Shown here piece after piece: positions 197 to 15,266 of a stretch of 15,266 nt of DNA. The position numbers and the translations under genes were made by a program. Each line of letters starts with the position of its first letter. The stretch's first letter is position 1. This DNA comes from Candidatus Omnitrophota bacterium (GTDB lineage Bacteria; Omnitrophota; Gorgyraeia; Gygaellales; Profunditerraquicolaceae): NCBI GenBank assembly GCA_023247875.1, contig JAHFFQ010000015.1:1-15266 (forward strand). Direction: 5' to 3'. The notes beneath the pieces were generated by a model. It saw nothing but the letters and a program-made list of their open reading frames with translations. It ran no database searches and was not told the origin of the DNA.

Positions 197-3100
197 TCCA
201 CAAGCCCTGTAAGTTTCCGTATACTAGAAAATATTACAGGGCTGCGGCAGAATGCATCAATCGGCCAACCTCTCCGTGGCTGGTGGGGTCCGATTTCTGC
301 CGCAGCCCTCTATTATTTTTTGCGAGGAACGAAAGCGCTTTCACCTGATCGGAGTATAGCCGGCAGCCCTGTAAATATAATGGCTATTTATCATTTAGGC
401 GTTAAGCCGTTTATTAAGCGGATACAAAATGGGGTTGTAAAGATTCAAACAGGCTGGGGTGACATTGATGAAGATGACCGTAATTTCCTGCGCGCGCACC
501 TGGGAATAAAGGATATGTCATTTATCGGGGAAGGGACTGGGGTGGTTTTTTATGAGAGCGGGGAGCATTATTATATACTTTCCGCTTCGCACGTAACCAA
601 TCCATTGGCATTCTCCCGCAGGGAATACAACCCTAATGTTATGGTAATGCTTCGAAACGGGATACAATTACAGGCCGAGGTCGTAACAGATACTTTTTTA
701 ACTTCATCCGTTGATTTAGCCATATTAAGAATTGAAAAGCAGGGCATACCGGAAGAAAATATAAGGATTATATCTTTAGCAGACGCGGCATTGGCATCCA
801 AAGAGGCTATTCTCGGAAAACATGGAGTTATCCTGGGATATCCACTCGAACAAAATTCGTTGGAATTATATCAGGGGCGCATAGGATTAGAAAAGGAAAA
901 GACCTTCTTTGGCCATTTTGAACAGCTAATGAGATTGGATATCGATTCAAAGCGCGGCACAAGCGGCGGACCGGTATTATTCCAGGGAAAGATCATCGGC
1001 ATAGTGGGGGGCATCGGCAATCCGGGCATAACCACCTTTAGTTCTCTTGAGACGATATTGCTATTTTTGCAGGATATTGTTGATGGAATTGCGTTTGCAT
1101 GCGATGATTTTTGCGATGACGCCGGCAGAAATGCGCTGCGGGAGGCAATGAACCTGGCAGGCAATATCGGTTTCGACGACAGGTATATTTTTAACAGGCG
1201 CCTGCTTCCTAAACTAACATTTCTTAGGAGGTTTGGTATCCCCGGGATTGAAGATTTCCTGGAAAGAGTTCCGAACGTAAAAAACATTGGCCCTCAGGAG
1301 ATCGCAAGGGCATTTGAGATCATCCGTAACGCGTTAAGAAAGATTTCCGCCTTATCTGTGGATTCTTCAGAGTCGCCGCTAATTTTTGCAAAAGGCGCAT
1401 TACTGGTTACTCTTGGTATAGGTTCCAGGAGTCTTGACGGATTTTCTTTCTTCAGCAGGCAAAATGGAGTGTCCTATCTATCGGGGCCGGAGGCGGATTC
1501 TCCTTTGCTGAATAATAAAAAACCATCCGGCAATAGAAAACAGGCAGCTGTTGATAGAGCCGGCAGGCTTATGAATGAAGCCTTTGTCTTATGGAGAGAA
1601 GGTAGGGGTATAGAGTCCAGGAATAGAGTCAAGCAGGCTAGAAAGATTTTATCCGGTCATCCTGATTTATTACAATGGTTGGGCTTGAAATGTTTTTATC
1701 TAGGCGAAATAGATGAGGCCTTAGATATTTTTGAGGAGGTTAGAAATATTGACCCCGATATCATAGATGCGTATATTGATCCGGCGCGGCTGCTTCAGCA
1801 TTTGGGAAGATACGAAAAGGCAAACGCGCTTTTTATTAAGGCTTTAAGCTTGGAAGAGAAGAGGGAGAAACGCGAGATTGCCAATTTATTTAAAATAAGC
1901 GGTTACTTAGGGATAAACCTGTTTTACCTGGGAGAATTAGAAGAAGGGCTTAGCAGGTTGCGGGAGGCCGCAGGATATTTTGAAGGATCGGAAAGGTATG
2001 AAGAGGCTGAGTTGCTGGCATATTTAAGTAATATTATAATAGATTACGTTTTACTGGATAGATTATCGGCGGAAAAGAGAGAGGAATATTTAGGCGAAGC
2101 TATTTTAGCGGCAGGCAGGGCGCTCATCCTGGCTAAAGACCTTAAGGATATTGCTGTAAGTGATACGACTTTTAGCCTGGCCAATTTTTCCTTGGCAAAA
2201 ATACACTTTCTTAATAAAGATTATGATTTAGCCCTGCCCGTAATTATAAAAGCCCATCAATATGCTCAAAAATTCGGAGGAATCCTGCAATTACAGATCC
2301 AAGCCGTATGGGCAGCTTGTTTGGAAAAGTTAGGCTTGCTGCAAGAAGCTGAAATTGAGGGGTTATTAAAACTAAAGAAAGATACAGAATGGGAAGAGCA
2401 TTTATTTGATTTATATCTCCAATTTAGCGGAATTTTAGGCAGGGTAACGGGAGAAAAGCTTGATAATCAGGCAGGAGATGCCCCCGAAGGATTAAATATA
2501 AGCGATGATCCTCATAAAATAGCCGAAGAATTTATCAGGCTAGCGTTCCTGTCAGCAAGTCTACGGGTAGCCGATGAGAAAGAAGGCATGATGGATTTGA
2601 CTACCTTATTTGATGTCGGTAAACTTCGGGAAGATGTGGAGGAATCAAGGCAAAGAGCCAGCGATAGATTTAACTCAGAAATGCAAAGGGTAAAATTACC
2701 TGATTCTATCTGGCAGTTCCAGCCGGTAATGGTGATGGAAAGCGGAAGAACAAAATTACAGTTGCAAGTTAACTACAAGTGGCAGGTGAATATTTCCGGA
2801 GTAATACCTTTATTCCCTCTGCCCTGGTCGGAAATCCAGCGTCGTCTAAAAAAGGGGTTATTCGGAGCTAAGGCCAAAGCAAAGAATATTGAGAATATTG
2901 ATGAGGTAAAAGAATTGATAGAGCAGGCGGTAATGTTTGGGGTGCGTTTCCAAGATTTAGAAGGCGGCTGGCATTATCTATATTATGAGCCAACCCAACG
3001 TAAAATATATATCGTGGTTGTAGGCAGGGAAGGCATAATGAATATCTCTGAAATCCAGGATAAAGATAGATTAGCCTACATCTTTTCTATTGAAACAGGT

Positions 3101-6100
3101 ATTGCGTTAAGCAAGCTAAAAACAGAGCTCTTGCCTATTTTGAGCGGAAAAGACGAAAAATGGCTGGAGTTTGAGCTTAAACAACTTGGCCATGAGCAGG
3201 TGGCTAAAGTAAGAAGAATATTACAGGCAGAGAGGAAAGAATTATTTTACTGCCTGGGAACCTCTGGCTTTTGGGTGGTTGAAACGGAATCTTCCGAAGC
3301 CGTAGTTATTGACAAGCATAAAAATTATATTAAGCTGCTCGACTTAAGTGGCGATCCGGCTGAAGAGAACCTTGGAGATGTGACATTTTTGATTGAGGCA
3401 GGTAGTAGTATATGTGAATCCGCAACCAGTTCGCCTGTTTATAATAACCAGGATTTAGAATCAGCCCTGCATAGAATTGGCGAAGAAATCGAAAATGGCG
3501 ATTTAGATAAAGCATTAGAAGATACCAAGTTTATACTTGAACAACATAGAGGCAATATAGATGCCATGTTTACGCTGTCTGTGATTCTGAAAGCAAAAGA
3601 TATAAAAGACAGGAAAGAGAAAAAAGTATTAAAGGGGCGCGATATAGACGCACCGATGGTGATTGTTAACCAGCCCGACAGCCATATCTACGAGAAGATC
3701 ATGGGATCTTTAGAATCCTTAGGAAAAGAATTACACCATTATTCCGGTGGTAAAACAGCGGGTGAAATAAGGGCCATAGATGACATTTTGTTCCATCAAA
3801 CATTGAAAATTGAGTTCCCTTGGACCGTATTAACTGTTAAGACAGAATTCATGGGACAACTATTTGGCGGGAGGGTGGGTTTATTATTAGATTTACCTGA
3901 GCCGATAAGCATAATTTTTTATGACAAATTTATAGAGTGCCTCATGCGCTTGGGGAAAGTTTGGCCCGAGTTATTGCAACAGATTCTTGAGGAAATGATG
4001 CTTTTCAGCAAGGCGGAATTAGATGGCTTTAGAAGAGGTTGCCTCACTGATGAGGAGCGGGAAGATTATGCCATCCGTCATTTGTATAAAATTAAGGGGG
4101 TAGACGGGCCGGCTTTATGGTTTTTGCGTAACCTCATCAGTGATTATGCCTATTATACCGCATATGGGAATGAGGCGTGGTTAATTAACCAGATTGATTA
4201 TGCGTTACGGGACTTATTTCAGCCGGAAATTTCCGCTGAGATCCGCAGCAAAATTATCGGAAGAGAGAAGGCACTAGTTACGATGTTTAGGGCGGGAGGA
4301 TATGCCAGCAGCCCTGTTAATAATTGCAGAAGGCAGCCTACTGCCTTCCCGTTAAGTCCAACTATTTACGGAGCAATATTGCGTGGTTTATTTACGCAAA
4401 GGATCGTCAATGAATCTATCTTTGCTCAAGGCGTCGAAGCAAACGCCGGCAGTGCTTTGTCGGGGATAAACTTTATCAGGGCTCCGCCGCTTGTCTGGTT
4501 AGATAAAATTACCTTACTTATAGCTGTTGCACTTGTATTTCCCGCCTGCGCTCACTTCGGGAATATCCAAACGCAGTCTTTCAGCCAGCCGTCAAAGCCT
4601 GCTTATACCCAGGACATGCCTGCGCCCGCAGAAGATTCTGCTAAATATTCAACCCAGGAAATAAAGTTTTTGCTTGATGGGTGCAGGTCTCTTGAAGTAG
4701 TCAAAATTGGCAGGCCCGCAGTTGTGCCTCTTGTCCGTATCCTCTTAAACAGAACTAATCCTGTCCTTACACGCGCAAGCGCTGCCTGGTGCCTGGCAGA
4801 AATCAAGGATCCTCTTGTCATACCTATCCTTATCAGGACCGCCAGGGAAATCGCCTATGACGATAAAGAATGGATGCCCCTGGTAGAGATCATCCGTGCC
4901 TTAAGAGAACTCAAAGCAAAAGAGGCGCTCCCCTTTCTTAAGGCATTAAAAGAAGCAAATGACCCGAAAAAACCAAAAACACCCAACTCCTCCCTGATCA
5001 TATATTACTGCTGCGAGTATGCCATAAATACAATTAATGCCGCGCAATCTCCCGTAAGAGGAATGGCTATGAGTCTTGCCTCCAGCCCAGCCTCCGGAGA
5101 AGACTTTCGAGAGGAAGCGATTGAGAAGCTTTCTGCCGATGAAAGAGGAAAAGTTCACATCTATGACAATATCGCCGTTTCTCTTGGCAGGATAAACGAT
5201 GCCATGGAAATATTGACGTCGTTAATAGAAAATACCCCGCAAATATTTGTAAGGAGATTTAAAAGAAACAGAGTTGCAAATCTTCCGCATATGCCGGTAA
5301 GGCTGCAGCTGCAGCAAATTAAAAGGATACGTTCCTCATTGGAAAAAGCCTCAATAATTTTAGGTAAACTTATTGGAACGAAGGGGGAAAGAGAGGTAAA
5401 ACGGGCGCGTAAAGAAATCGACCTGATCTTAAGCGATTTGAATAAAGAGATATCCCGGGAAGCATTGCTTAAAAGATTAAACGGGACAAGAGCATTATTA
5501 AAGAAAAGGGCAGGCCGTTTAGCCAGGCAGCAGAAAAGCGTTTACAATAGCCTGAGGTGCCTTGACATCAATTATAAGATTCAGGTAATCATGCGTAAGC
5601 TGTTCTTATCGCAATTATCAAAAGGCATTATTTCCAGCAATGCCTGGGGCGCCTATGTCCCGAGACAGGCCAGGGAATATATAAGCCGGATTGTCGGAGG
5701 AGGATTTGTTTCCGGGCAGCTAGTGTCTTTAAACGGGAAAGCAGTAAGGGTGAGGATAAATTTACCGGAAGATTTTAGCTTGGAGGATGCATATAGCCAT
5801 ATAACTGAGAGAGCTACCCGAAAAGGAACCAGAAGGCTGGTGCGTGTAAATGATTATCCCCGGCCGCCGGAAACAATTATCGGGGTGCGCAATGTTTTAG
5901 AGGAGCTTACCGGCAGCAGATACGTGAAAGTCAAAGGACGCAAAGACATTTTTACAGCTTATCGCAATACCATGCAAACCCGTAAGATTCTGAAGAAAAT
6001 ATTAGAATTGAGAGAGCAAGTGTATAGGCTAAGCAGGGAGACAAAAGGGATAGAGACTTCTTTTGAAATCACGCTTATTAGAATCGGTCTTGATACCAGA

Positions 6101-9100
6101 CAATACACGGGATTTATTCCCCTAAAGGACAAAACAGGAGTTTACGCTGGTTTCGTTATCTATAATACTATGGCAAGCGTAGGAAATGTCTTAAAAACAG
6201 TTATGCTTCCAGTTGAAGCATCTTTAGCCACAAGCCCGTTGCTGACCACTTTCGGCATGGCTGTAGCGAGTCCGATAAATCGCGGGAGCGGGATCATTAT
6301 GCACATAAGTTCTCTTCCTTCGCGATTCGGCATTGGAGATTTAGGGCCTGATGCCTATGAATTCGTCTCAAACATTTTTGAGGCCAAACAGGCATATTGG
6401 CAGATACTCCCGCATACGCCCATTGGGGCAGGGTACTCTCCTTTTAGCAGCCCGTCGGCTTTCGCGACTAATGAGCTTTTTATCAGCCCGGATCTGCTGC
6501 TTCAGGATGGCTTGCTTAGCAGAAAAGACCTGGGAGAGATCCCTGTTTTTCCACAAGAGTATGTGGATTTCCCGCAAGTCATTAAATACAAAGGTAGTAT
6601 TCTAAACTTAGCCTACCGCACCTATAGCCGGGACGCCGGACAGGAAGAAAGAAAAGATGTTGAAGCTTTCTCTTCCCGGAATTCAGGGTGGCTTGACCCT
6701 TACTCGTTGTATGTGGTCATAAAGAGTATCAATAACGGGCTTCCTTGGTATAACTGGCCGGACGAGTTCAGGAAAAAGGACGCAGGCGTTTTGAATAATG
6801 TCAGGGAAAAATATTTACGGCAGTTGGAAGAAGTTAAATTCCGTCAGTTTATCTTTACCAAGCAGTGGCTCATCCTAAAAAGCCTGTATGAGGCATCCGG
6901 AATAAAAATGATAGGGAACATGCCTATTTATGTAAATGACGACAGCGCCGACGCCTGGTGGCATCCTGAGGTCTTTTTGATCGATGAAAACGGGCGGCAG
7001 CTGTTTCTTGCCGGTGTTCCTCCGGATTATTTCAGCGCGACAGGACAGCTCTGGGGCAATCCTGTTTATAATTGGGAGTACCTTAAGGAAACAGGGTATA
7101 AATGGTGGATAGAGAAGGTAAGGCAAATCCTTAAATACTGCGACCTCTTCGTGGTTGACCATTTTCGCGGGTTTAACGCTTACTGGAGAGTTCCCTATGG
7201 AGAAAGCACGGCCTTGAACGGAGAATGGGCCGAGGGGCCGAGTGATGCTTTTTTTGAAGCACTGTTAAGGGAGCTCCCCGATCTGCCCATAATTGCGGAA
7301 GACCTGGGAGTCATCACTGATGATGTCCGCAGGACAATGCAACGCTTCGGTTTCCCCGGGATGAAAGTATTACATTTTGCCTTTGGGAACAAAAAAACAA
7401 ATATGCTGGATAATCCCTATTTGCCGCATAATTATACCGATAATTTCGTAGCCTATCCAGGCACGCACGATAATAGTACTACCCTGGGATGGTGGAAGGA
7501 GGACGCGGGCAGGCGGGAAAAAAGAAATTTTGCCTGGTATCTGGGAGAAAAGGTCAGCAGGCTTAATGTGAACTGGAAAATAATAAATATGGCGATGGCC
7601 TCGTGTGCAAGGGCCGCGATCTTTCCTATGCAGGATATATTGGGCCTGGGTGCTAAATTCAGGATGAATATTCCCAGCACATCGGAAGGCAACTGGTTGT
7701 GGCGTATGAAGCCAGGAGCATTCGGGGATAAGCTGCAAATTAAACTCAGGAGGCTTACGGAAAGATGCGCAAGAGCCACCTCGTTTACTTGCTCCAGCCC
7801 CGTTGTCTCCAGAGAGACCATTAAAATATTGAGGGACAACTCAAGAGAAGCAACTGTTAGGATAGACGAAGGGTTTATCCGTGCGTTCGAGAAGAGCATT
7901 GAATGGTTTATCGAGAGGCTGAAGAAATCCACGGCAGGCACAAGGGGGACAACCCTGCATATTACAGACGAACGCGACGGGAAAGGCAATATTGACTACG
8001 ACAAATACTGGAAAACCGTGATGAGCGCCTGGAGCGCTGAAGAACGCATCGAATACCTTAAGCGCAGATACGAGGAAACTTTATCCGGTAAGATCTTATC
8101 CGAAGAATTAAACGACGCGGTAGTTGCCTTAATGGCGCAGGCATACGCGCAGTATATAAAGAAAAATTTTCCGCCTGATTTATGGGGCGAGTTTGTAGGG
8201 TTTGATAACCGTTTCTTCTCCCGGGAATACGCTGATTTGATAACCCGGGTGTTGACAGCCAACGGGATCAGGGTGCTACGCGATAAAGGTAACCAGCCCA
8301 CGCCTACCCCGGTATCTTCTTATATGGGTTACATTAATAACCTCGCCGGATCAATAGAAGTTACCGCCAGCCATAATCCTCCCATCCATACCGGGATTAA
8401 ATCGGCAACGCATTACGGAGGCGTAGATACCGATGATATATCGGATAAAGTTTTGGATGAAGTGCTGGCGCTTTATAGCGGGGGAGGGGAAATAAGACTG
8501 GCTTCGCTCATAGAAAATAGCCGGATCGCAGAAATTGATGCAAAAGAAATTTATTTCGATAACTACGTAAGCAAGCTTTATACTCCGGAAACAATTCAGG
8601 CCATAAAAGAAGCGATGCAAAGAGGGGCAAAGTTCATCTTTGACGCCATTTGCGGCGTGGGCGGTGAGACCATGGAATATTACCTTGACAGGCTGTTTGC
8701 CGGATTTAGTTGGAGAGACAGCGTAATCATCATCAACAAAGAATTTGATCCCGCGATGAAAGGCATAGTTAAGCCCGATCCTTCCATAACCGATACCCTT
8801 AAATTTACCGGAGCCCTGGATGTATTGGCAGAAAATCCGGAAGTTCTCGTAAGCATTACTGCCGATATGGACGCCGACCGCATTGGCACTGCGGTAATTA
8901 TCCCTGACGGGTCTGTGGCTTTAGCCAAGAAATTCGGCCTGGAAGTAAAGACTATCCTGGGGGTCAACATAGTTTGTTTTACGCCCAACCAGATCTTCAC
9001 GCTCATCGCCTATGAAAGGATAGCGGAGTTTATCAAGCTTAATGCGGGAACGCCTGACATTAGTGCCGTAGAGCCGGGACTGTTAAAGTCCCTGGTCTCC

Positions 9101-12100
9101 AAGCTGCATATTATTACAAGCGTACCTACTTCAAGAATTGCCAAGGCAGTGGTCGAATCGGTTGGGGGAGTCGCACATTTATTAGAGGTGGGATTTAAGA
9201 ATTTAGGCAAGGAGGCAGTGGTTGTTGAATTAGAAGATGGGAGCGCTGTTATCATTATCCTGATGGAAGAGAGTGGCGGCGGCCAGATCGGTTTATTAAC
9301 AGGCCGCGGAGCAAAGAATAGCGCAACCCATAAGGATAAAGACACCTGCACTCTTGGGCTGGCGCTCTACGGGGTTACCTCCAGGCTGTATCTGGAAGAT
9401 AAGAATCTGGTAGATTTGTATGTTGAAATGGCTGAAAACCTGGGAGGGCTGTTTTATTATGAGCGCGTTGACGCCGAAGGACTATCCGATGAATTGAAGC
9501 AGTCAATATTGGACAAAAGAATGATGATTCTTGAGGACAGAGAAACGCTGCTGCGAGTTTTCGGCAAAGAAGAAAAGGATTTGTTGGGTTTAAGTAAGAT
9601 AACCTTAGAGAACGTGAAATTGCTGGTTAAGAAAGAATCGGGCGAATGGGTCATTTATCATCCCGAAGCCAGAAGGTATGAATTTAAAGACGGGGAGGCA
9701 ATTGCAGTATTCTTTGCCGGCGGCGGACCTATGGTAACCGTCTACGGCAGCACGGGAAGGCTGAAAACCTGGTCTTTGATCAGGCCGTCAGGCACGGAGA
9801 ATACCGTGCGCATATATTTAGAGGTATTTGAGGATTTTGATAATCCTCATCCGGAGCATCTTTACGAATACTATGTACGGTTATTTGATTATCTGGGCCT
9901 TCTTGGCCATCACAGCGCACTCATAAAAAAAGTCAACGATAAATACCTTGGTGCCGCCAGCCCGGTTTCGCCCGCAGTCATCAGATTCCTGATTTTAGCG
10001 TGTGTCGGATTTATATGTTTTGATTACTGTTCGAAGATCCCTGGAATGTGTAATATTGAGCCAGGATACATTTTACTGGTAATAATAGCAGGCATTATTA
10101 TTTTATTACTTCCAGGGAGATACATCGCCACCGTTAAGGGCATAGCTGATCTGCCGCAGCCAAATAAGTTGAGGGACGGCTTTGAAAGAGGCAAAAGGCA
10201 GGAAAAAGAAATGTATATTGATTATCTTTTGTCGGCGGTAGAGGAGGATTATTCCACGCAGATATTAAAAGGATTCTTAATGTGGAAAACCACAGGCACT
10301 AATAACACCAATAACCCTGATGAAATTGAAAAGATTGTTGAGCCTATAATAGCGCAACCCGGAAATCACGCCCTGTATGAATATTTGAATTTAGGCCCGG
10401 TGGAAACCAGTTCAATTGGCCCGTCGCTTGACATGTTTTATTTCGTTAGTCGCTCTGTAAAATCTCTGGAAGAAGGCTATTACTATCATATAAGGTGCAT
10501 CTATGAGAACAAGTCTACGCAAGGATCCGGTAAAGAAGAAGATTATGTGCGCCAGCGATTTATTTCTGTCAGTCATTATATGGAATTATTGCCTGAGTCG
10601 GGTGGTAAATTATGGCGTAAATTCGTCTTGCCTGATTGCATCTCTGATAAAGATGCATTGAAATTACGGCAAATAATAGATTCTTTTAAGCAAAGGCGAA
10701 AAAGAATGTTTAAGGCGGATTCGGCGCTTAGCCCCGTAACTACGCTATCAGCAAGAAAAGAAGGACCGCCCCTACCGTGGCTAGTGCGGAATCCCATCAA
10801 TAGCGCTTCGCCACTCCTTGTCCTTAATAAGCCTGACTGCAGCGACGCAAACTCCCCACTTTATGCAGAGGCATGCTGCATTGACGCAATAATACAAAGG
10901 ATCTGGCAGGGGATAGCTAATGGCAATGATGAGGTAACCTATAGTAATATTAAAGCCGCAACAATTGGCGCTACCTGGGATGCGTTGGCTCAGGGGAAAA
11001 TCTCCACCATTCATGAGGTAAGGGATATTTTCAATAAAACTTTGTTTTTTGACTGCAGATTAATCGCTGCTGATTATGATGACAGCCTTTGTTATGCCCA
11101 CAGGCCGATAACAGAGATGCCGGATACGCGTGAAGAGATCTCCCGCCTGGTAGAATTAATACTTTTTGTCATATCTACGGGGCATCCTCAAGAAAGCCTG
11201 CACAGGATTTGCGGACAGTATATTGCCAGGGAGGAGAGGATTAGAAACAGGGAACGTATTCATTTCCATTGTGAATTAGGAGGATGCGTATGCGCCTATG
11301 ATAAATCCGGCAACCTTGTTTTGTTCGTAGAAAAAAGCAGAAAAATAGATGAAAGCTTAAAGGATGAGATAATCACAGTCATTATTGAAGTCCTGAAAGA
11401 AGCGGGCCTGATTGCCCGGCTCAAAAAGATAGGTTCCATAAGCCAGGAAGAGCGCGCAGGCGATTTTATATTCATATCTCCCAGATATTCGAAAGTCACA
11501 TTAGGGTTTGTAGGTGTGGATTTACAGAACCAGAGGTATGCCGTTGGCAAAATGCTTGAGCCCTTATTAAGCAATATCGGCAGTAGACTGAGGGAAAAAG
11601 GCGACAAGCTGCATTTTCCTATTTCAAGCGTATCCATGGATATAGGTTTGTCAGAGAAATTAGATTCGCTTCAAGAATTAATGAAGGAACGCGGGATAAA
11701 TCCGGCGCAAACAGCTATTTTAGGTGACAGCGCCAATGATCTATCGCTGTTTGGGCTTGTCGAAAAAGGCGCCCTTGTTTTCTGCGCTAATCCCGAAGGT
11801 TTCCCGGAACTTGAGCGGGATGAATACAGCCAGTTGAAAGAAAAAGTCATCTTTATAACCGGTCCTCCTGCAGTGGGCAGGGTATTGCGGGCATTAAGAA
11901 TAATAATAGAAAACAGAGGTAGTTCTTTTGCCGCCAACAGCCCTGCTCAAAATCTGGAACAGATTCGCCCTCATGCTTCTCTGGCCGGTAGACCCATTGT
12001 TGCCGTGTTTGATGTCCATGGGACGCTGCTTCAACCCACCTGGAAGGAAGAATACGCCTTAACCTGTTGTTTACTTACCGGAAAGACTAGGCAGGGAGCG

Positions 12101-15100
12101 ATGAAATGGGTATCCCAAAATGCTATCCATGTGCCCGAGTTGGTTATCATACATAAATTAGTTCAGCTTTCAGGTTTATCAGAAGAACGCGTGAAGCAAT
12201 GCCTCATTGCAAAACGAAGATTCTTGCGTGAAATTGATATTCCCAGTGCCAGGCCGGGGGCCCTGAAGATCGTAGAATATTTGTACAAAAAAGGCGTGCC
12301 CGAGGTATCCACCAGCGGTTCAGACAAGTCGCTGGTAATCCGCCAGCTCGAATCAACCGGTTTTCTTCAGTTTGTTCCGGAAGAGATGATTATCGGCGGG
12401 GATGATATCCTGCTTTCTACTCCACGGCTGGAAAATAAGGGGCATTATCGTAATCTGGTCTTGGAGGGCCTGAAATACCATTTTCCTCAGCATATCCTGC
12501 TTTATTTTAATAACTGGATTGACGGCGTGAAGTTTGTCATTGAGCAAGGTGGAATTGTATTTGGATTGCCTGAAGGAGAGGGCGAGGAATATGAAGCAAA
12601 CCGTAGAGCATTAATCGATGAAGGAGTAAATTATATTCTCCCCGGATGGGACGTACAAGAGGAAATCTTTCAATTGCTTGATATTTCTAAAGAATGCCAG
12701 CGCAAGCAGAGAGTAAACCCGATTTTTGAAGAAAAGGCAAGAGAGATACCGCTTATCCTGCCTGCGCCAAGAGTCGGTCCATTGAGCCTGCTCATCGATG
12801 TCAGCGTTGATTTAAAGACGCTTACCTATCACGAAGTTATTGATGACACAGGAGTTTTCCGCCGGGACGGAATCGTGGAATACGGGAGTCTTCAGATGCG
12901 GCCTATTGTTACTTTCCCCAGCTCGTATTTGCTTTCTCCCGAACGACATATGCAGGCGCATTTTAAAGATGAGGTTAAACAGTCCGTAGAGCGGATTTGG
13001 CCGCAAGGCAAGCGTTATACGAGGTATGGCGGGATAATTGTTTCCTGGGACAAGGAAGTGGATAAGGATGTTTGGACGACAAATATCGATACCGTCTATC
13101 TGCATAAGTGCCTTGAAGAATCGGGTTTGCTGGAAAATTCAAACATAAAGAGAGCCATTGAGATAGGAACAGGCGGAGGTCATATTTCCATTTTACTGGC
13201 CTGGCGCATACCCACGCTTGAAGAAATATTAATCAGCGATATCAGCTTCTATGCCTTACGGGCGGCCAAACGCAACATCATGCCCTACCTTATGCCTGCT
13301 CGCAGATTGAGGACGTATTTAGGTAAAGGATTCGGCGCTATGCCGAAAGGCAGGGCGGATATTATTGTAGTGAATCCTCCGTATATACCGTCGCCGCCTT
13401 TTGATACGCGCGCCCATAATGATCCTTACCGCGGCACCGGACTCATCAGGGAGGTTTTGAAAGATGGGATACACTGGCTTAATCCCGATAATCCCGAAGC
13501 AAGCATAGTGATAAATATAAGTTCACTGGCCGGGCAAGATGTTAGGGTTTATCTTGATGAATTCGGCCTCCAGTTGGACATAGAGATTCTTGGGCAGGAG
13601 CTGAAAGTACCGCTTAAAATAAGTTCTATTACGCAGGAATGGAAGGATTGGCTGTTGGAGCAAGGAGGCTTAGAATATTATGCTGATTGCCCCGAAGACC
13701 AAGAGCCGTATTGGCACATTCTGCAGGCATACCGTATCCGCCCTAGAATTGTGTCCAGCCCCGCTGCTTATACGTTTAAGGTATTCGGTTCCCTGGTGGA
13801 GACCTTCGGTAGTTCGGCAAGGTGCCTATTGGGAAGCGAGTCCTTTACCGGGGGGATAAGGATAATTTCACATCTTTCATCGGGCATATCAGCGTCGTTA
13901 GCTTTATTGAACCCATTTTCTTGCCAAAGACTGTTTTGTGCAATCATATTTTTGAACTGGTTTGTTAAATCGCACGGATCAAAAGGCCCTCCTTCAATTT
14001 TAGCTAGAGGGATAAATAAACTATTCTTCGCGCCAATTAACACTAATACCGCTTTTTCCAGGAGGAATAGGGCTGGTTCTAGCCCTGTATTTTCCATAAA
14101 TAACAGGAAATTATTTCCTCTGATCAGCCCAACGGCAGTGACGCACTCTTTTGACGATGCCTGTATATCTTCGCTTCCTCCTGATATCGCAAGCGAACTG
14201 ATCATAAGATCAGAAACCCAGTTCCTTATTTTTCTTCCCGGGGATATAAAACTATTAAAGCAAGATATCGGTTTAGAGAAGGCAAAAACCTTGCTTAAAG
14301 AAGCCACTTTTGGAGAAAACAGCGGGTTTTCTATCTTGGGTAAGCAGGGAAGTCTGGATACTCTTCCTGGTTGGTTGCGTATTCCATTTGTCCGGCTCAC
14401 CCATGAAAAGTTGTCCAGGCTGGGGCAGACCAGAGAGTTTGTCACGGTGGTCAATACCTCTAAATCTCAATTCCAGGAAGACGCAATAATACTAGCCGGA
14501 GTAGGAATTGATATTGCGCAAACTCCTTACCTTAAGCTTGAAGTAAGAAATAAAGGCTTGATGACCAAAAATCAGGAATTATTTAACACTATCCGTCAAA
14601 TAGCGGCGCTTAACGGCAGCATTAAAATTCTACCTTTGATCGGAAAAGGAATAAGCCGGGATATTTTACGGGCATTATTAGCTGTGGAGCAAATTATTGC
14701 TTTGCGCATTGAGGGAACGAAGCCTGGTTCCCGCAGGGGAATAGGCTCTTCGCTTCGGGATAAAGATAAAATAGACGAACTTATAACTTTGATTAGAGGA
14801 AACAGGCCGCTTATTCCATTAATCGCCGAATGCGGTATCGGTAATCCGGCGCATGCCCGCGAAGCATTGGAAATGGGGTTCGACGCCGTCTTAGTAAACG
14901 CAGCCATTACGCAATCTAATGATCCCATCGGAACTGCGCTTGCCTTTTCGAATACCGTTAAAACAGTTATCTCCGACGGCTGTAATGCGGGGGCATCTGA
15001 CAGCCCTGCCGTCTTTAATCTCGAGGAACGCAGCATTAATAACCGCGGATTACTTCTTTCCCGCAAGGAAGGTATCTTTGTTAACGCCTGCGATTGGCGT

Positions 15101-15266
15101 ATGATCATGGACTCTGTGATGAAAGCGGACAGAGGAGTTTTAAAGAAAGGAGAGCTTCTAGCGGTAAGCTCTCATCAACAAAAAGGCAAAGAAGCCCTCA
15201 TATCTACACTTGAGCCAGATGTGATAGGGATAGTCAAAATAATATGTGCGGAGCGGAATGTTTCAG
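2..15266 (+). CDS. Giant modular multi-enzyme protein (polyprotein-like), partial at both ends
   Basis: The frame starting at base 2 has no stop codon through base 15265, which is 5088 codons; both ends of the gene lie outside the window. Domain signatures of at least nine different families appear in order in this one frame: cupin, trypsin-like protease, TPR, HEAT, MalQ, phosphohexomutase, two HAD phosphatases, N-methyltransferase and ThiG. Coding in this frame is thus real and not chance openness. Recurrent Ser-Pro-Val-like linkers separate the modules. Three hydrophobic segments (4508-4549, 9986-10021, 10067-10111) could anchor or export parts of it, although most recognised modules are normally cytosolic enzymes. 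No ribosome binding site with a usable start in this frame marks an internal gene start. Whether the product stays as one chain or is processed cannot be seen from sequence. Giant genes are known in Omnitrophota; assigning this window there is inference. Confidence 0.95.
212..358 (+). other. Short unrecognised segment between two SPV linkers
   Basis: About 50 residues between the linkers at 203 and 365. It is poor in acidic residues, contains the hydrophobic patch AAALYYFL and resembles no family I know. It contains a perfect inverted repeat (listed separately), so it may be a small inserted element or a spacer rather than a folded domain. Confidence 0.4.
238..309. repeat. 15-bp perfect inverted repeat inside the reading frame
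   Basis: Bases 238-252 (agggctgcggcagaa) are the exact reverse complement of bases 295-309 (ttctgccgcagccct), separated by 42 bases. In RNA this would form a stable GC-rich stem. The right arm contains the agccct hexamer that also occurs in the linkers at 203 and 365, so this short segment holds the hexamer three times in one orientation and once inverted. It could be a relic of a small mobile palindrome, a recombination site or an mRNA structure. It lies within coding sequence and has no U-tract, so it is not a terminator. Confidence 0.75.
377..1118 (+). other. Trypsin-like (S1/HtrA-type) serine protease domain
   Basis: This module has the complete catalytic triad of a chymotrypsin-fold protease in the correct order and spacing. 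The His is in SASHVTN (His codon 590-592), the Asp in SSVDLAILRI (Asp codon 713-715), and the nucleophile in GTSGGPVL (Ser codon 962-964), followed by the usual strand GKIIGIVGG. Residue numbers in the window are His197, Asp238 and Ser321. The match is to the trypsin-like peptidase group that includes HtrA/DegP protease domains; no PDZ domain follows. All catalytic elements are intact, so activity is expected. The substrate is unknown. HtrA-type enzymes often cut after small aliphatic residues, so the SPV linkers of the same chain are candidate targets, but that is inference. Confidence 0.88.
1119..1516 (+). other. Helical tail after the protease, ending in linker DSPLLNN
   Basis: About 125 residues, largely predicted helix, with an acidic, cysteine-containing stretch at its start (ACDDFCDD, near 1100-1125). 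A weak hydrophobic patch (GALLVTLGIG) lies at about 1394-1425 after an ESPL motif at 1370. No family is recognised. It could be a C-terminal extension of the protease or a spacer leading into the TPR region; the linker at 1496-1516 closes it. Confidence 0.4.
1517..2455 (+). other. TPR-repeat region
   Basis: The segment is almost entirely helical and contains tetratricopeptide repeats. The clearest runs from about 1664 to 1765, with LLQWLGLKCFYLGEIDEAL followed by DIFEEVRNIDPD: the W-L-G-Y-G-A-F-P pattern of a TPR. A second repeat follows at about 1766-1860 (LLQHLGRYEKANALFIKAL), and more divergent helical pairs continue (FYLGELEEGL near 1922, LAKIHFLNKDYDLAL near 2200). TPRs bind peptides or other proteins; here they could hold modules of the chain together or recruit partners. 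No catalytic motif was seen. Confidence 0.75.
2456..3424 (+). other. Unrecognised alpha/beta module after the TPRs
   Basis: About 320 residues with mixed strands and helices and normal charged composition, so probably folded. Visible features are an amphipathic helical start (2520-2690), a strand-rich middle (about 2710-2810, with KLQLQVNYKWQVN), a basic helix (KKGLFGAKAKAKN near 2860-2890), and a paired-strand section (GGWHYLYYEPTQRKIYIVVV near 2960-3020). It ends at the SSPVYNN linker. I do not recognise the family and propose no function. Confidence 0.4.
3440..4303 (+). other. Unrecognised, mostly helical module
   Basis: Bounded by the SSPVYNN linker upstream and SSPVNN downstream, giving about 288 residues. 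The first 45 residues look like a TPR-type helical hairpin (LESALHRIGEEIENGDLDKAL). A strand-containing middle section follows (about 3655-3910), then a long helical part with many aromatic residues (WFLRNLISDYAYYTAYGNEAW near 4120-4180). No catalytic motif or known family was recognised. The neat linker-to-linker boundaries suggest an independently folding unit. Confidence 0.4.
4502..4549 (+). other. Internal lipoprotein-signal-like hydrophobic segment
   Basis: LDKITLLIAVALVF is followed by PAC (Cys codon 4547-4549) and then a Pro/Ser/Gln-rich stretch (SQPSKPAYTQDMPAPAED). A Lys, a hydrophobic core, a small residue and a Cys, then a disordered tail, is the layout of a bacterial lipoprotein signal, although Phe and Pro at -3 and -2 make the lipobox poor. 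It sits about 60 residues after the SSPVNN linker at 4310, deep inside the chain. It could be a transmembrane anchor, a remnant of a once separate lipoprotein, or an export signal exposed after processing. Confidence 0.45.
4658..4975 (+). other. HEAT-like repeat region
   Basis: Helical pairs with the pattern of HEAT/PBS-lyase-type repeats: IGRPAVVPLVRILLN (4706-4752), then TRASAAWCLAEIKDPLVIPI (about 4769-4829), then a third pair ending EALPFLKALKEA (about 4922-4959). Such repeats make protein-binding scaffolds. The region follows the lipoprotein-like segment and ends at the QSPV linker at 5045, so signal plus HEAT repeats could once have been a small surface or periplasmic lipoprotein. Confidence 0.6.
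5045..5095 (+). repeat. Linker doublet QSPV ... ASSPAS
   Basis: Two SP motifs exactly 12 residues apart (Ser codons 5048 and 5084), with AMSLASSPA at the second. A second doublet with the same 12-residue spacing lies at 6233 and 6269 (TSPL ... GMAVASPIN). Both have a Met a few residues before the second motif, which could be a former start codon of a joined gene. Confidence 0.6.
5096..6226 (+). other. Unrecognised basic helical module before MalQ
   Basis: About 377 residues. The first third (about 5225-5560) is very rich in Lys and Arg and helical (KKRAGRLARQQKSVYN), possibly coiled-coil. The middle (about 5640-5930) has strands and loops such as GGGFVSGQLVSLNGKAVRVR, and the last part is again helical, then strand-rich (ITLIRIGLDTRQYTGFIPL). 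The basic character suggests nucleic-acid or polyanion binding, but no known motif was found. It ends at the TSPL/ASPIN linker doublet. Confidence 0.4.
6281..7789 (+). other. malQ: 4-alpha-glucanotransferase (amylomaltase) domain, GH77
   Basis: A full-length GH77 domain of about 500 residues, the usual size of bacterial MalQ. It opens with GSGIIMHISSLPSRFGIGDLG, the family N-terminal signature apart from small changes. The catalytic nucleophile Asp is in VVDHFRGF (codon 7157-7159), the acid/base Glu in IAEDLG (7298-7300), and the third carboxylate in PGTHDNSTT (Asp 7469-7471). MNIPSTSEGNWLWR near the end matches the family C-terminal motif. The enzyme transfers alpha-1,4-glucan segments between maltodextrins, normally in the cytoplasm, releasing glucose. 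Linkers ASPIN upstream and SSPV downstream bound the domain within a few residues. Here it is an internal module with no start or stop of its own. The next module is a phosphohexomutase, which fits alpha-glucan metabolism. Confidence 0.95.
7805..9952 (+). other. Phosphoglucomutase/phosphomannomutase-family module
   Basis: All four hallmark sites of the alpha-D-phosphohexomutase family are present in order: the phosphoserine loop TASHNP (Ser codon 8369-8371), the metal loop DMDADR (8864-8881), the sugar-binding EESGG (9266-9280) and the phosphate-binding RPSGTE (9782-9799). An N-terminal family match (GFDNRFFSREYAD, then TPTPVSS) precedes the serine loop. The enzyme moves phosphate between C1 and C6 of a hexose through a phosphoserine and Mg2+. 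Sequence alone does not settle glucose versus mannose; EESGG and the MalQ neighbour favour glucose-1-phosphate. At about 715 residues it is longer than usual, with a roughly 120-residue helical N-terminal extension of unknown role. It lies between linkers SSPV (7793) and ASPV (9956). Confidence 0.92.
9974..10720 (+). other. Two-helix membrane hairpin plus unrecognised soluble domain
   Basis: Directly after the ASPVSPA linker come two hydrophobic helices, FLILACVGFICF (9986-10021) and YILLVIIAGIIILLL (10067-10111), joined by a short Cys-containing loop (DYCSKIPGMC). They are long enough to cross the membrane. About 200 soluble residues follow, with a strand/helix mix and an Arg/Lys-rich end (KQRRKRMF, 10688-10711). 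The soluble part is not recognised. If the chain is intact, the hairpin places both flanks on the same side of the membrane, so the cytosolic enzymes on either side could both stay in the cytoplasm. Confidence 0.6.
10721..10864 (+). repeat. Cluster of three SP linkers
   Basis: SALSPVT (Ser 10730), SASPLL (Ser 10808) and ANSPLY (Ser 10853) occur within 42 residues of low-complexity, proline-rich sequence with few acidic residues. No fold is apparent. It looks like a long disordered joint or several eroded linkers left by lost modules, placed just before the first HAD phosphatase. Confidence 0.5.
10865..11929 (+). other. HAD-superfamily phosphatase, Cof/IIB-like
   Basis: The four HAD motifs are visible. 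Motif I is AADYDDSL with nucleophile Asp 11072-11074 and general acid/base Asp 11078-11080. Motif II is FVISTG (Thr 11177). The motif III Lys is probably in SEKLDSL (11657-11659). Motif IV is ILGDSANDLSL (Asp 11726, Asp 11738). The roughly 155-residue gap between motif II and motif III and the GDSxND motif fit class IIB (Cof/sucrose-phosphatase type) with a large cap. Such enzymes dephosphorylate sugar phosphates; the substrate here is unknown. About 65 helical residues precede motif I. The module ends at the NSPAQN linker at 11930-11953. Confidence 0.85.
11954..12760 (+). other. Second HAD-like domain with altered active site
   Basis: Starts with the strand IVAVFDVHGTLL, in which the nucleophile Asp is kept (12011-12013) but the second Asp of the usual DxDGT is His. 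A helical cap of the class I type follows (about 12040-12240), then a probable motif II Ser/Thr in EVSTSGSDKS (about 12302-12331) and a possible Lys in LENKGHY (12434). Where motif IV GDxxxD is expected the sequence is LLYFNNWIDGVKF (about 12500-12535), with the first Asp replaced by Asn. The fold is clear but the chemistry may be altered or lost; a binding role is possible. It follows the first HAD through the NSPAQN linker, and no SPV linker separates it from the next module. Confidence 0.75.
12780..13753 (+). other. PrmC/HemK-like SAM-dependent N-methyltransferase module
   Basis: A Rossmann methyltransferase with SAM-binding motif I IEIGTGGGH (13157-13183), an acidic residue after strand 2 in ISDIS (Asp 13238-13240), and the catalytic motif NPPY (13373-13384), preceded by the strand ADIIVV. 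NPPY marks enzymes that methylate planar amide or amino nitrogens: PrmC/HemK on release-factor glutamine, rRNA m2G enzymes and some DNA adenine methyltransferases. The substrate is not determined. The roughly 120 residues before motif I (12790-13150) would be the recognition domain; they do not look like the PrmC N-terminal helical domain. The module ends at the SSPA linker at 13754. Confidence 0.82.
13768..14097 (-). other. Antisense-looking stretch: protein-like reading on the minus strand (inverted module or minus-strand ORF, 109 codons)
   Basis: Between linkers SSPA (13754) and SSPV (14078) the + frame stays open but reads poorly: about 108 residues with no Asp, only two Glu, and very many Ser, Phe and Leu. 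The opposite strand from ATG 14097-14095 to a stop at 13770-13768 reads 109 residues of ordinary composition (6 Asp, 9 Glu), for example LAKIEGGPFDPCDLTNQFKN. Upstream of 14097 the quality switches back to the + strand. This fits a module inverted in place with the + frame surviving by chance, because wobble positions coincide on the two strands, or a small nested minus-strand gene. No good ribosome binding site precedes the minus ATG. The family is not recognised. Confidence 0.4.
14090..14482 (+). other. Unrecognised N-terminal part of the ThiG-like module
   Basis: About 130 residues after the SSPV linker at 14078-14089, with normal charge balance and mixed helix and strand (LFLPGD region near 14234, then IGLEKAKTLLKEATFG at 14267-14314). 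It occupies the place where a ThiG protein would have its first barrel strands, but I see no ThiG N-terminal signature in it. It may be a divergent half barrel or a separate small domain. Confidence 0.4.
14483..14995 (+). other. ThiG-like (thiazole synthase-type) TIM-barrel segment
   Basis: Resembles the second half of ThiG, the enzyme that builds the thiamine thiazole ring from 1-deoxy-xylulose-5-phosphate. YLKLEVRNKG (14528-14557) matches the ThiG strand that carries the Schiff-base lysine (Lys codon 14534-14536). CGIGNPAHAREALEMGFDAV (14831-14890) then VNAAI matches the ThiG phosphate-binding GIGTPSDA ... LLNTAIA region. The typical ThiG N-terminal strands are not evident upstream, so it may be a divergent or reduced barrel, or another member of the phosphate-binding TIM-barrel group such as PdxS. 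Thiamine function is not proven. The segment ends at linker DSPAV (14999-15013). Confidence 0.65.
15014..15266 (+). other. Start of a further module, cut by the window end
   Basis: About 84 residues after the DSPAV linker, beginning FNLEERSINNRGLLLSRK, with a helix (MIMDSVMKADRG) and a strand (ELLAVSSH). The frame is still open at the last base. Composition is normal, so a folded domain probably begins here, but the family cannot be named from this fragment. Confidence 0.45.

Follow-up and report, generated by a model that had tools for sequence, protein, structure and literature searches.

Why does one uninterrupted reading frame of a bacterial contig hold so many unrelated proteins, and what is the short peptide that recurs between them? 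The question is raised by contig JAHFFQ010000015.1 of a Candidatus Omnitrophota bacterium (genome G000, contig C85), which has 15,266 nucleotides, was analysed over its whole length and is called the window here. A single forward-strand frame is open from base 2 to base 15265 and encodes 5,088 amino acids without a stop. Along it follow a trypsin-like protease, a TPR module, a HEAT module, a 4-alpha-glucanotransferase (MalQ), a phosphohexomutase, two HAD hydrolases, a HemK-like methyltransferase and a ThiG-like domain. With its frame open at both contig ends, the window is best read as an inner segment of a polyprotein-like giant gene. From the sequences of related giant frames, we think it probable that such giants are polyproteins which are cut in the cytoplasm at or beside SSP[AVIL].

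The recurring tetrapeptide

The window frame contains 20 SP[VALI] strings. The class [ASTGDN]SP[VALI] occurs 16 times against 1.65 expected from composition (P = 3e-11), and the stricter [AS]SP[AVIL] nine times against 0.65 (P = 3e-8). The motif was tightened to [AS]-S-P-[A/V/I/L] for comparisons beyond the window, and "site" below means this form. Its density was 1.77 per 1000 amino acids in the window and 0.13 in ordinary open reading frames (ORFs) of the same genome, about 14 times less (Fisher P = 5e-7). These were 307 ORFs of 100 to 1,000 amino acids, not open at both ends, from 40 of the 177 contigs, and they had 12 sites in 92,366 amino acids.

An earlier note on this DNA had counted about 16 copies of a peptide with Ala, Thr, Ser, Gly or Asp before Ser-Pro; 14 copies match that exact class, and 16 are reached only if Asn is allowed. 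The copies span nucleotides 200 to 15010, as it had said. Its statement that they are often followed by Asn-Asn did not hold: this is so for 4 of the 20 window copies, and among relatives for 5 of 370, where 3.7 are expected. Asn-Asn is not part of the motif. Nor does the motif mark the N-termini of stand-alone proteins, as had been thought possible: the 12 copies in ordinary ORFs sit anywhere along the length, which is expected if only the polyprotein needs the motif.

The genome of the window holds both punctuated and unpunctuated long frames. Two sites were found in 3,576 amino acids of contig C135 and two in 2,326 of C11, and none in C55 (5,711), C100 (1,129) or C177 (1,013); two contigs were wholly masked. 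Contig C128 (L134) has two adjacent open frames of 1,895 and 1,918 amino acids with four and five sites (2.1 and 2.6 per 1000), punctuated chiefly by ASPL and each including a short run of N. To judge from its sequence, C128 is another piece of a giant.

Giant frames in related genomes

Searching with the mutase module turned up Omnitrophota contigs and giant frames of other genomes, and additional modules brought in more. Twelve giant frames were examined, all reached through shared modules, and they are not a random sample. Eight of them are punctuated, with 379 sites in 160,387 unmasked amino acids, in seven genomes and three families, so the recurring peptide that the earlier note saw between modules is real and extends well beyond the window. 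The strict form SSP[AVIL] makes up 351 of the 379. There are 9 sites in the window, 96 in G073, 27 and 66 in two frames of G227 (G227a and G227b, which may be parts of one gene), 41 in G075, 23 in G055, 49 in G051 and 68 in G037. G075 and G055 share one genus, and G051 belongs to the genus of the window. Mis-binning of the window contig was considered and is unlikely, because its tetranucleotide correlation to the genome (0.919) is inside the range of 11 other contigs (0.80-0.98) and the same-genus G051 also has a punctuated giant.

Uninterrupted ORFs of more than 20 kb, as described for Omnitrophota, are present in G073 and G075, and the window is a 15 kb piece limited by its contig. In G073 the ORF is complete, with 45,379 amino acids and no masked letters, on a single contig of 1,553,138 bp. 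The G075 frame runs from stop to stop over 39,687 amino acids on a single contig of 1,974,201 bp and is very probably the published 39,678-amino-acid giant of Ca. Velamenicoccus archaeovorus; 13,333 of its amino acids are masked (19394-32726), and the openness of that stretch rests on the published protein.

When all 4-mers were ranked blindly by over-representation, with masked runs set aside, SSPA, SSPV, SSPI or the overlapping SSSP came top in eight of eight punctuated frames and in none of the four others. For example, SSPA occurred 31 times against 0.43 expected in G073, and SSPV 28 times against 0.19 in G051. The residue that closes the motif varies between lineages. G075 and G055 have Ala and G227 has Val and Ile, whereas G037 uses Leu, Val and Ile, and G073 uses Ala, Val and Ile. 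Residues other than these four are rare after SSP, the chief exception being Ser (19 in the eight frames, nine of them in G075). Median spacing of sites is 229-307 amino acids across the eight frames, with wide quartiles. This resembles the sizes of ordinary proteins, and each frame holds several proteins of mature size.

Ordinary ORFs near the giants had 8 sites in 51,840 amino acids in G073 and 3 in 18,943 in G075, which gives a density of 0.13-0.16 per 1000 for G000, G073 and G075; the samples from G227 (0 sites in 1,553 amino acids) and G055 (2 in 1,187) are too small to weigh. Four of the eight G073 sites, all SSP[AVI], lie in one separate ORF of 1,228 amino acids (L056, contig C1, 1113230-1116913), possibly a small polyprotein outside the giant.

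Position of sites relative to domains

None of 230 sites fell inside a Pfam domain, against 26.1 expected. Domains were accepted with E values no higher than 0.01, or 0.11 for the window, some of them under curated cut-offs, and each family was counted as one stretch; sites were [ASTGDNE]SP[AVIL] in the window and [AS]SP[AVIL] in the other frames. The scan covered the window, G073 and G051 in full and G075 and G227a in part, with G227b, G055 and G037 set aside; in the fully scanned frames the count is 0 of 162 against 22.8 expected. The earlier claim that no copy lies within the recognised folds of the window agrees with this, as 0 of 17 are in Pfam intervals, which cover 34% of the frame. Homologous cores between genomes, which are independent of Pfam, include 7 of 379 sites against 46.4 expected, and for three pairs (G227 and window, G051 and G075, G051 and G055) the motif stands at the alignment start in both genomes. 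No site was found in 15 gaps within one enzyme, and at least one was found in 48 of 62 gaps between different modules, a contrast that is supporting only, as the latter gaps are mostly longer. The motif is not equally frequent inside folds or in unrelated proteins, and the proposal of a linker or processing site is supported to that extent.

Internal export signals and the ends of the MalQ module

A signal of twin-arginine translocation (Tat) requires a free N-terminus, and Tat substrates fold before export. There are eight copies of the string [ST]RRxF[LIVM] in the punctuated frames and none in the four unpunctuated giants. Seven of the eight were judged by eye to be Tat signals; the eighth, at 37417 of G075, is without a hydrophobic part. 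A site lies at most 30 amino acids upstream of all seven internal signals, and five of them read SSP[AVI]-x-x-SRR[DS]FLK. In three of these five the Met position is taken by Ala, which no start codon encodes. The seven signals count as four independent modules because G075 and G055 share a genus. The chance of a site near a Tat signal is about 0.1 each locally and 9e-5 for four modules, with the exact spacing not counted in. Because each of the seven follows a site, we prefer processing over a mere linker.

The MalQ module (6275..7774) is full length. It matched NF011080 with 623 bits (cut-off 477) over model positions 3-495 of 496. The match begins, at model position 3, on the Ile of an ASPI site (6266..6277) at the native N-terminus, and six residues remain after its end before the SSPV site (7793..7804) that separates it from the mutase. 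Against PDB chain 1fp8_A (500 amino acids), residue 4 aligns to the residue after the motif, and residue 498 ends 8 amino acids before the next site. The family strings DHFRG, AEDLG and THDN, which we take to be catalytic, are present and place the module among the 4-alpha-glucanotransferases. By its sequence, MalQ thus appears to have near-native ends between two sites, and it agrees with the Tat cases although no export is involved.

The earlier note had said that MalQ, the mutase and the first HAD are bracketed by copies within a few residues. This is exact for MalQ, with the model at amino acids 2092-2591, SPI at 2090-2092 before it and SSPV at 2598-2601 after it. The mutase falls between sites at 2598 and 3319, and the first HAD (DxD at 3690, Pfam end at 3926) lies between 3618 and 3980, a looser fit than had been stated. 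The same mutase module is also preceded by SSPV in G227 and G073, at a spacing different from that in the window. Matches to MalQ were found in 9 of 11 genomes searched, and in G000, G051, G037 and G108 the copy in the giant exists beside a separate one. Because stand-alone copies of some enzymes coexist with those in giants, the latter may be paralogs that serve special roles.

Codons, conservation and linker repeats

The 12-mers that encode the sites are mostly distinct: all 9 of the window differ, as do 85 of the 96 in G073 and, as the lowest value, 47 of 66 in G227b. Because site codons are so diverse, it is the peptide and not the DNA that is conserved. Between G075 and G055, 13 of 18 sites are retained, with 51 of 52 motif residues identical at those sites, against 55% identity in the flanks and 67% in the whole alignment.

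Some sites have a 45-nt flank similar to that of another site; they number 14 among the 66 of G227b, 5 among the 96 of G073 and 4 among the 41 of G075. No common flanks were found at the 9 window, 27 G227a and 23 G055 sites (G051 and G037 were outside this test). Given the repeated linker DNA in places, some sites may have been copied along with linkers. A repeated linker peptide (VNETLRSGLKVSL) follows SSPA at amino acids 7444-7468 and 10315-10346 of G075 and is missing at the G055 counterparts, as if it were an inserted linker element with its own site.

Proposed processing and candidate proteases

What the sequences show directly is the motif itself, where it is placed, its occurrence in three families, the Tat signals that follow it and the near-native ends of MalQ. 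In the process that we propose, one uninterrupted giant ORF would encode many unrelated proteins, including enzymes, regulators and Tat-exported hydrolases. Between most of these proteins would lie a linker of variable sequence with the tetrapeptide [AS]-S-P-[A/V/I/L]. A cellular protease would recognise the tetrapeptide in the exposed linker and cut there or next to it; the cut would be made in the cytoplasm, probably while the chain is still emerging. Cutting would free modules of ordinary protein size, whose new N-terminus would lie about where the native protein starts. Two points suggest the cytoplasm: Tat substrates are folded before they are exported, and many of the modules are of cytosolic type. 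Those above Pfam cut-offs are SecA-like, B12-radical SAM, HD, ROK and LuxR-type helix-turn-helix (HTH) modules; RelA/SpoT and sigma region 4 modules are below the cut-offs, and response-regulator domains are also among the modules. Going further, we lean towards the view that this lineage of tiny uncultured bacteria makes dozens of unrelated proteins, among them Tat-exported enzymes, SecA-like ATPases and regulators of transcription, from "operons in one ORF": chains that reach 45,000 amino acids and are cut by a dedicated cytoplasmic protease wherever one tetrapeptide recurs, at tens of places.

Ser-Ser-Pro followed by a small or aliphatic residue resembles P4-P1 of substrates of elastase-type serine proteases, such as AAPV. 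The trypsin-like serine protease module of the window (Trypsin_2, 533..1024, by Pfam, with the His, Asp and Ser strings present) was considered as a general processor and rejected. In a search of five punctuated genomes, which left out G051 and G037, Trypsin_2 was found in the window and also in G073, where it lies outside the giant; it was missing from G075, G055 and G227. A PDB sequence search with the module gave no match at E 0.01. Families S9 and S8 were each found in only two of seven punctuated genomes and were rejected too. S41 is in 11 of 11 genomes, punctuated or not, and is uninformative.

Several points weigh against cutting. None of the four protease families tested (Trypsin_2, S9, S8 and S41) tracks the motif. 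Cleavage itself, the exact bond, the compartment, the timing and the activity of modules after release are what we infer from the observations above. Four giants with shared modules are unpunctuated, having 0 sites in G162, 0 in G321, 1 in G236 and 5 in the examined part of G108. No site lies in 14 of the 62 gaps between modules, and in G051 (L157) PMI, epimerase, carbamoyltransferase, ROK and HAD modules are consecutive with no site between them; these five are either true fusions or have joints cut by another agent. Signal-peptide-like segments are not significantly enriched behind sites (9 of 262 against 5.5 expected), and at 10082 of G075 the match probably marks where leader peptidase would cut a Tat signal, rather than a joint. 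Other SP dipeptides are retained at 18 of 33 positions between G075 and G055, so that the 13 of 18 for sites exceeds this only moderately. A gappy stretch of the alignment holds one of these 13 retained sites (6744).

For the G108 giant (contig C2, L163-L170) a frame of 70,450 amino acids was reported; the 53,333 examined, which are partly masked, have a Thr-Pro repeat (31 TPTP) and no SSP punctuation.

Alternative explanations

The giants might stay uncut, with SSP[AVIL] as a structural linker which tethers enzymes like beads on a string in a giant multienzyme complex of a very small cell. We regard this as unlikely. The sites do lie in linkers outside domains, the four unpunctuated giants are presumably uncut or processed otherwise, and multifunctional fusions such as AROM are known. 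However, a tether hardly accounts for the seven internal Tat signals directly behind sites or for SecA-like and HTH modules, and a flexible linker needs no ordered tetrapeptide, yet most sites follow the strict SSP[AVIL] form. Ribosomal separation, as in 2A "stop-go" peptides with the bond before Pro skipped at S-S-P, would act in the cytoplasm during translation without a protease, and Pro is invariant, by the pattern used. It is very unlikely: the 2A consensus, D-x-E-x-NPGP, is absent from the eight frames, where NPGP by itself is found twice, the 262 sites of six frames have no strongly conserved upstream context beyond the serines, and the residue after Pro is strongly constrained, which skipping does not require. 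A modification site for glycosylation or phosphorylation, on a surface giant for adhesion or predation, is a highly improbable role. Signal-peptide-like segments were seen by eye at the giant N-termini of G073 and G075, and an extracellular coat is the published proposal for the V. archaeovorus giant in the part of PMC10066038 available to us. Many recognised modules, however, are cytosolic enzymes or DNA-binding regulators, and the position of the motif at module edges and beside Tat signals would stay unexplained.

The modules resemble separate proteins, which could also mean that the frame is a run of genes that overlap or abut, with translation starting internally close to each joint; we find this explanation extremely unlikely. 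A Met follows within 12 amino acids at 67 of 379 sites (0.18; random 0.16-0.25), and a Shine-Dalgarno sequence plus start at 5 of 379 (1.3%; random 1-3%), a test of limited power since such starts were found in only 23 of 86 (G073) and 17 of 84 (G075) ordinary ORFs. There is no excess of promoters or terminators in the window, and no Rfam RNA was found in the window and L021. We give almost no credence to the idea that the motif has no function and was left by a repeated DNA element that had been inserted in frame. Some linkers hold repeats, VNETLRSGLKVSL with its own SSPA is inserted in G075 and not in G055, and one window linker has an inverted repeat; the diversity of site codons, with no common flanks at the window, G227a and G055 sites, largely refutes it. 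Cutting at the tetrapeptide is the reading that we retain.

Other features of the window

All features are on the forward strand. A TSPV site (200..211) and a GSPV site (362..373) lie upstream of the trypsin-like module. In the translated linker between two motif sites, 228-252 and 295-319 form an inverted repeat, 92% complementary and 42 nt apart, which looks like a former intergenic palindrome. A DSPL site (1496..1507) precedes the TPR module (1664..2353, Pfam); SSPV sites at 3428..3439 and 4307..4318 precede the HEAT-repeat module (4682..4849, Pfam), which is followed by SSPA (5081..5092) and TSPL (6230..6241) sites. Downstream of MalQ lie the phosphoglucomutase/phosphomannomutase module (8081..9829, Pfam) and sites ASPV (9956..9967), ASPL (10805..10816) and NSPL (10850..10861). 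HAD module 1 is given at 11555..11779, the Pfam match only, as the fold begins earlier with the DxD noted above. An NSPA site (11936..11947) separates it from HAD module 2 (12002..12382), which is under the curated cut-off of Pfam. The HemK/PrmC-like methyltransferase module (13049..13384, Pfam) is followed by SSPA (13754..13765), and SSPV (14078..14089) lies upstream of the ThiG-like module (14402..14965, Pfam). A DSPA site (14999..15010) stands 12 amino acids past the ThiG match.

Known systems and meaning of the finding

Viral polyproteins with an embedded protease likewise have many proteins per frame and a recurring short joint site, and the window has a trypsin-like module; unlike them, the giants share no cis-acting protease among the families tested for self-processing, Trypsin_2 being missing from three of the five punctuated genomes tested. 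Fusion enzymes of AROM type also carry several enzymes per chain, but they are uncut, serve one pathway and have no repeated joint peptide and no internal export signals. We know of no cellular system which makes dozens of unrelated proteins as one cut chain.

The nearest working analogue is the plastid polyprotein of Euglena (RBCS, LHC), a cellular polyprotein in which a conserved peptide linker stands between the units, which are then cut apart, according to the part of PMC4938576 that was accessible. As there, a recurring conserved peptide stands at the joints here (379 sites, 0 of 230 in domains). The case described for Euglena is a eukaryotic plastid with repeated copies of one protein and an excised decapeptide, whereas here a bacterium has dozens of unrelated proteins and a tetrapeptide in variable linkers.

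Giant genes themselves are known already. In the accessible parts of the literature, those of Omnitrophota count with the longest genes so far reported for bacteria, and what they do is described as poorly understood (PMC10066038, PMC11573180). Besides the 39,678-amino-acid giant of Ca. Velamenicoccus archaeovorus, ORFs over 20 kb were reported in 77 of 116 Velamenicoccia genomes (PMC10066038), and they are the same genes as here. They were described as poor in annotated domains and as possibly adhesive or predatory surface proteins; in the main text of that account the word "polyprotein" occurs 0 times, and the parts available mention no joint motif. What is new is to read these genes as punctuated polyproteins, a reading of Omnitrophota giants or giant bacterial genes that was not found in the literature searched, whose coverage did not include the main giant description, Kizina et al. 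2022.

The question is directly testable with the proteome of a cultured member, since a single tetrapeptide is concerned; a public V. archaeovorus proteome data set, PXD025008, is named in the accessible part of PMC12583861. If the polyprotein reading is true, giant genes would be precursors of many ordinary enzymes, much of the puzzle around them would concern how genes are expressed and not a giant surface protein, and a new site-specific protease would follow. Translation, folding, export and stoichiometry would be tied to a single cut site, and bacteria would use a viral- or Euglena-style strategy for cellular enzymes.

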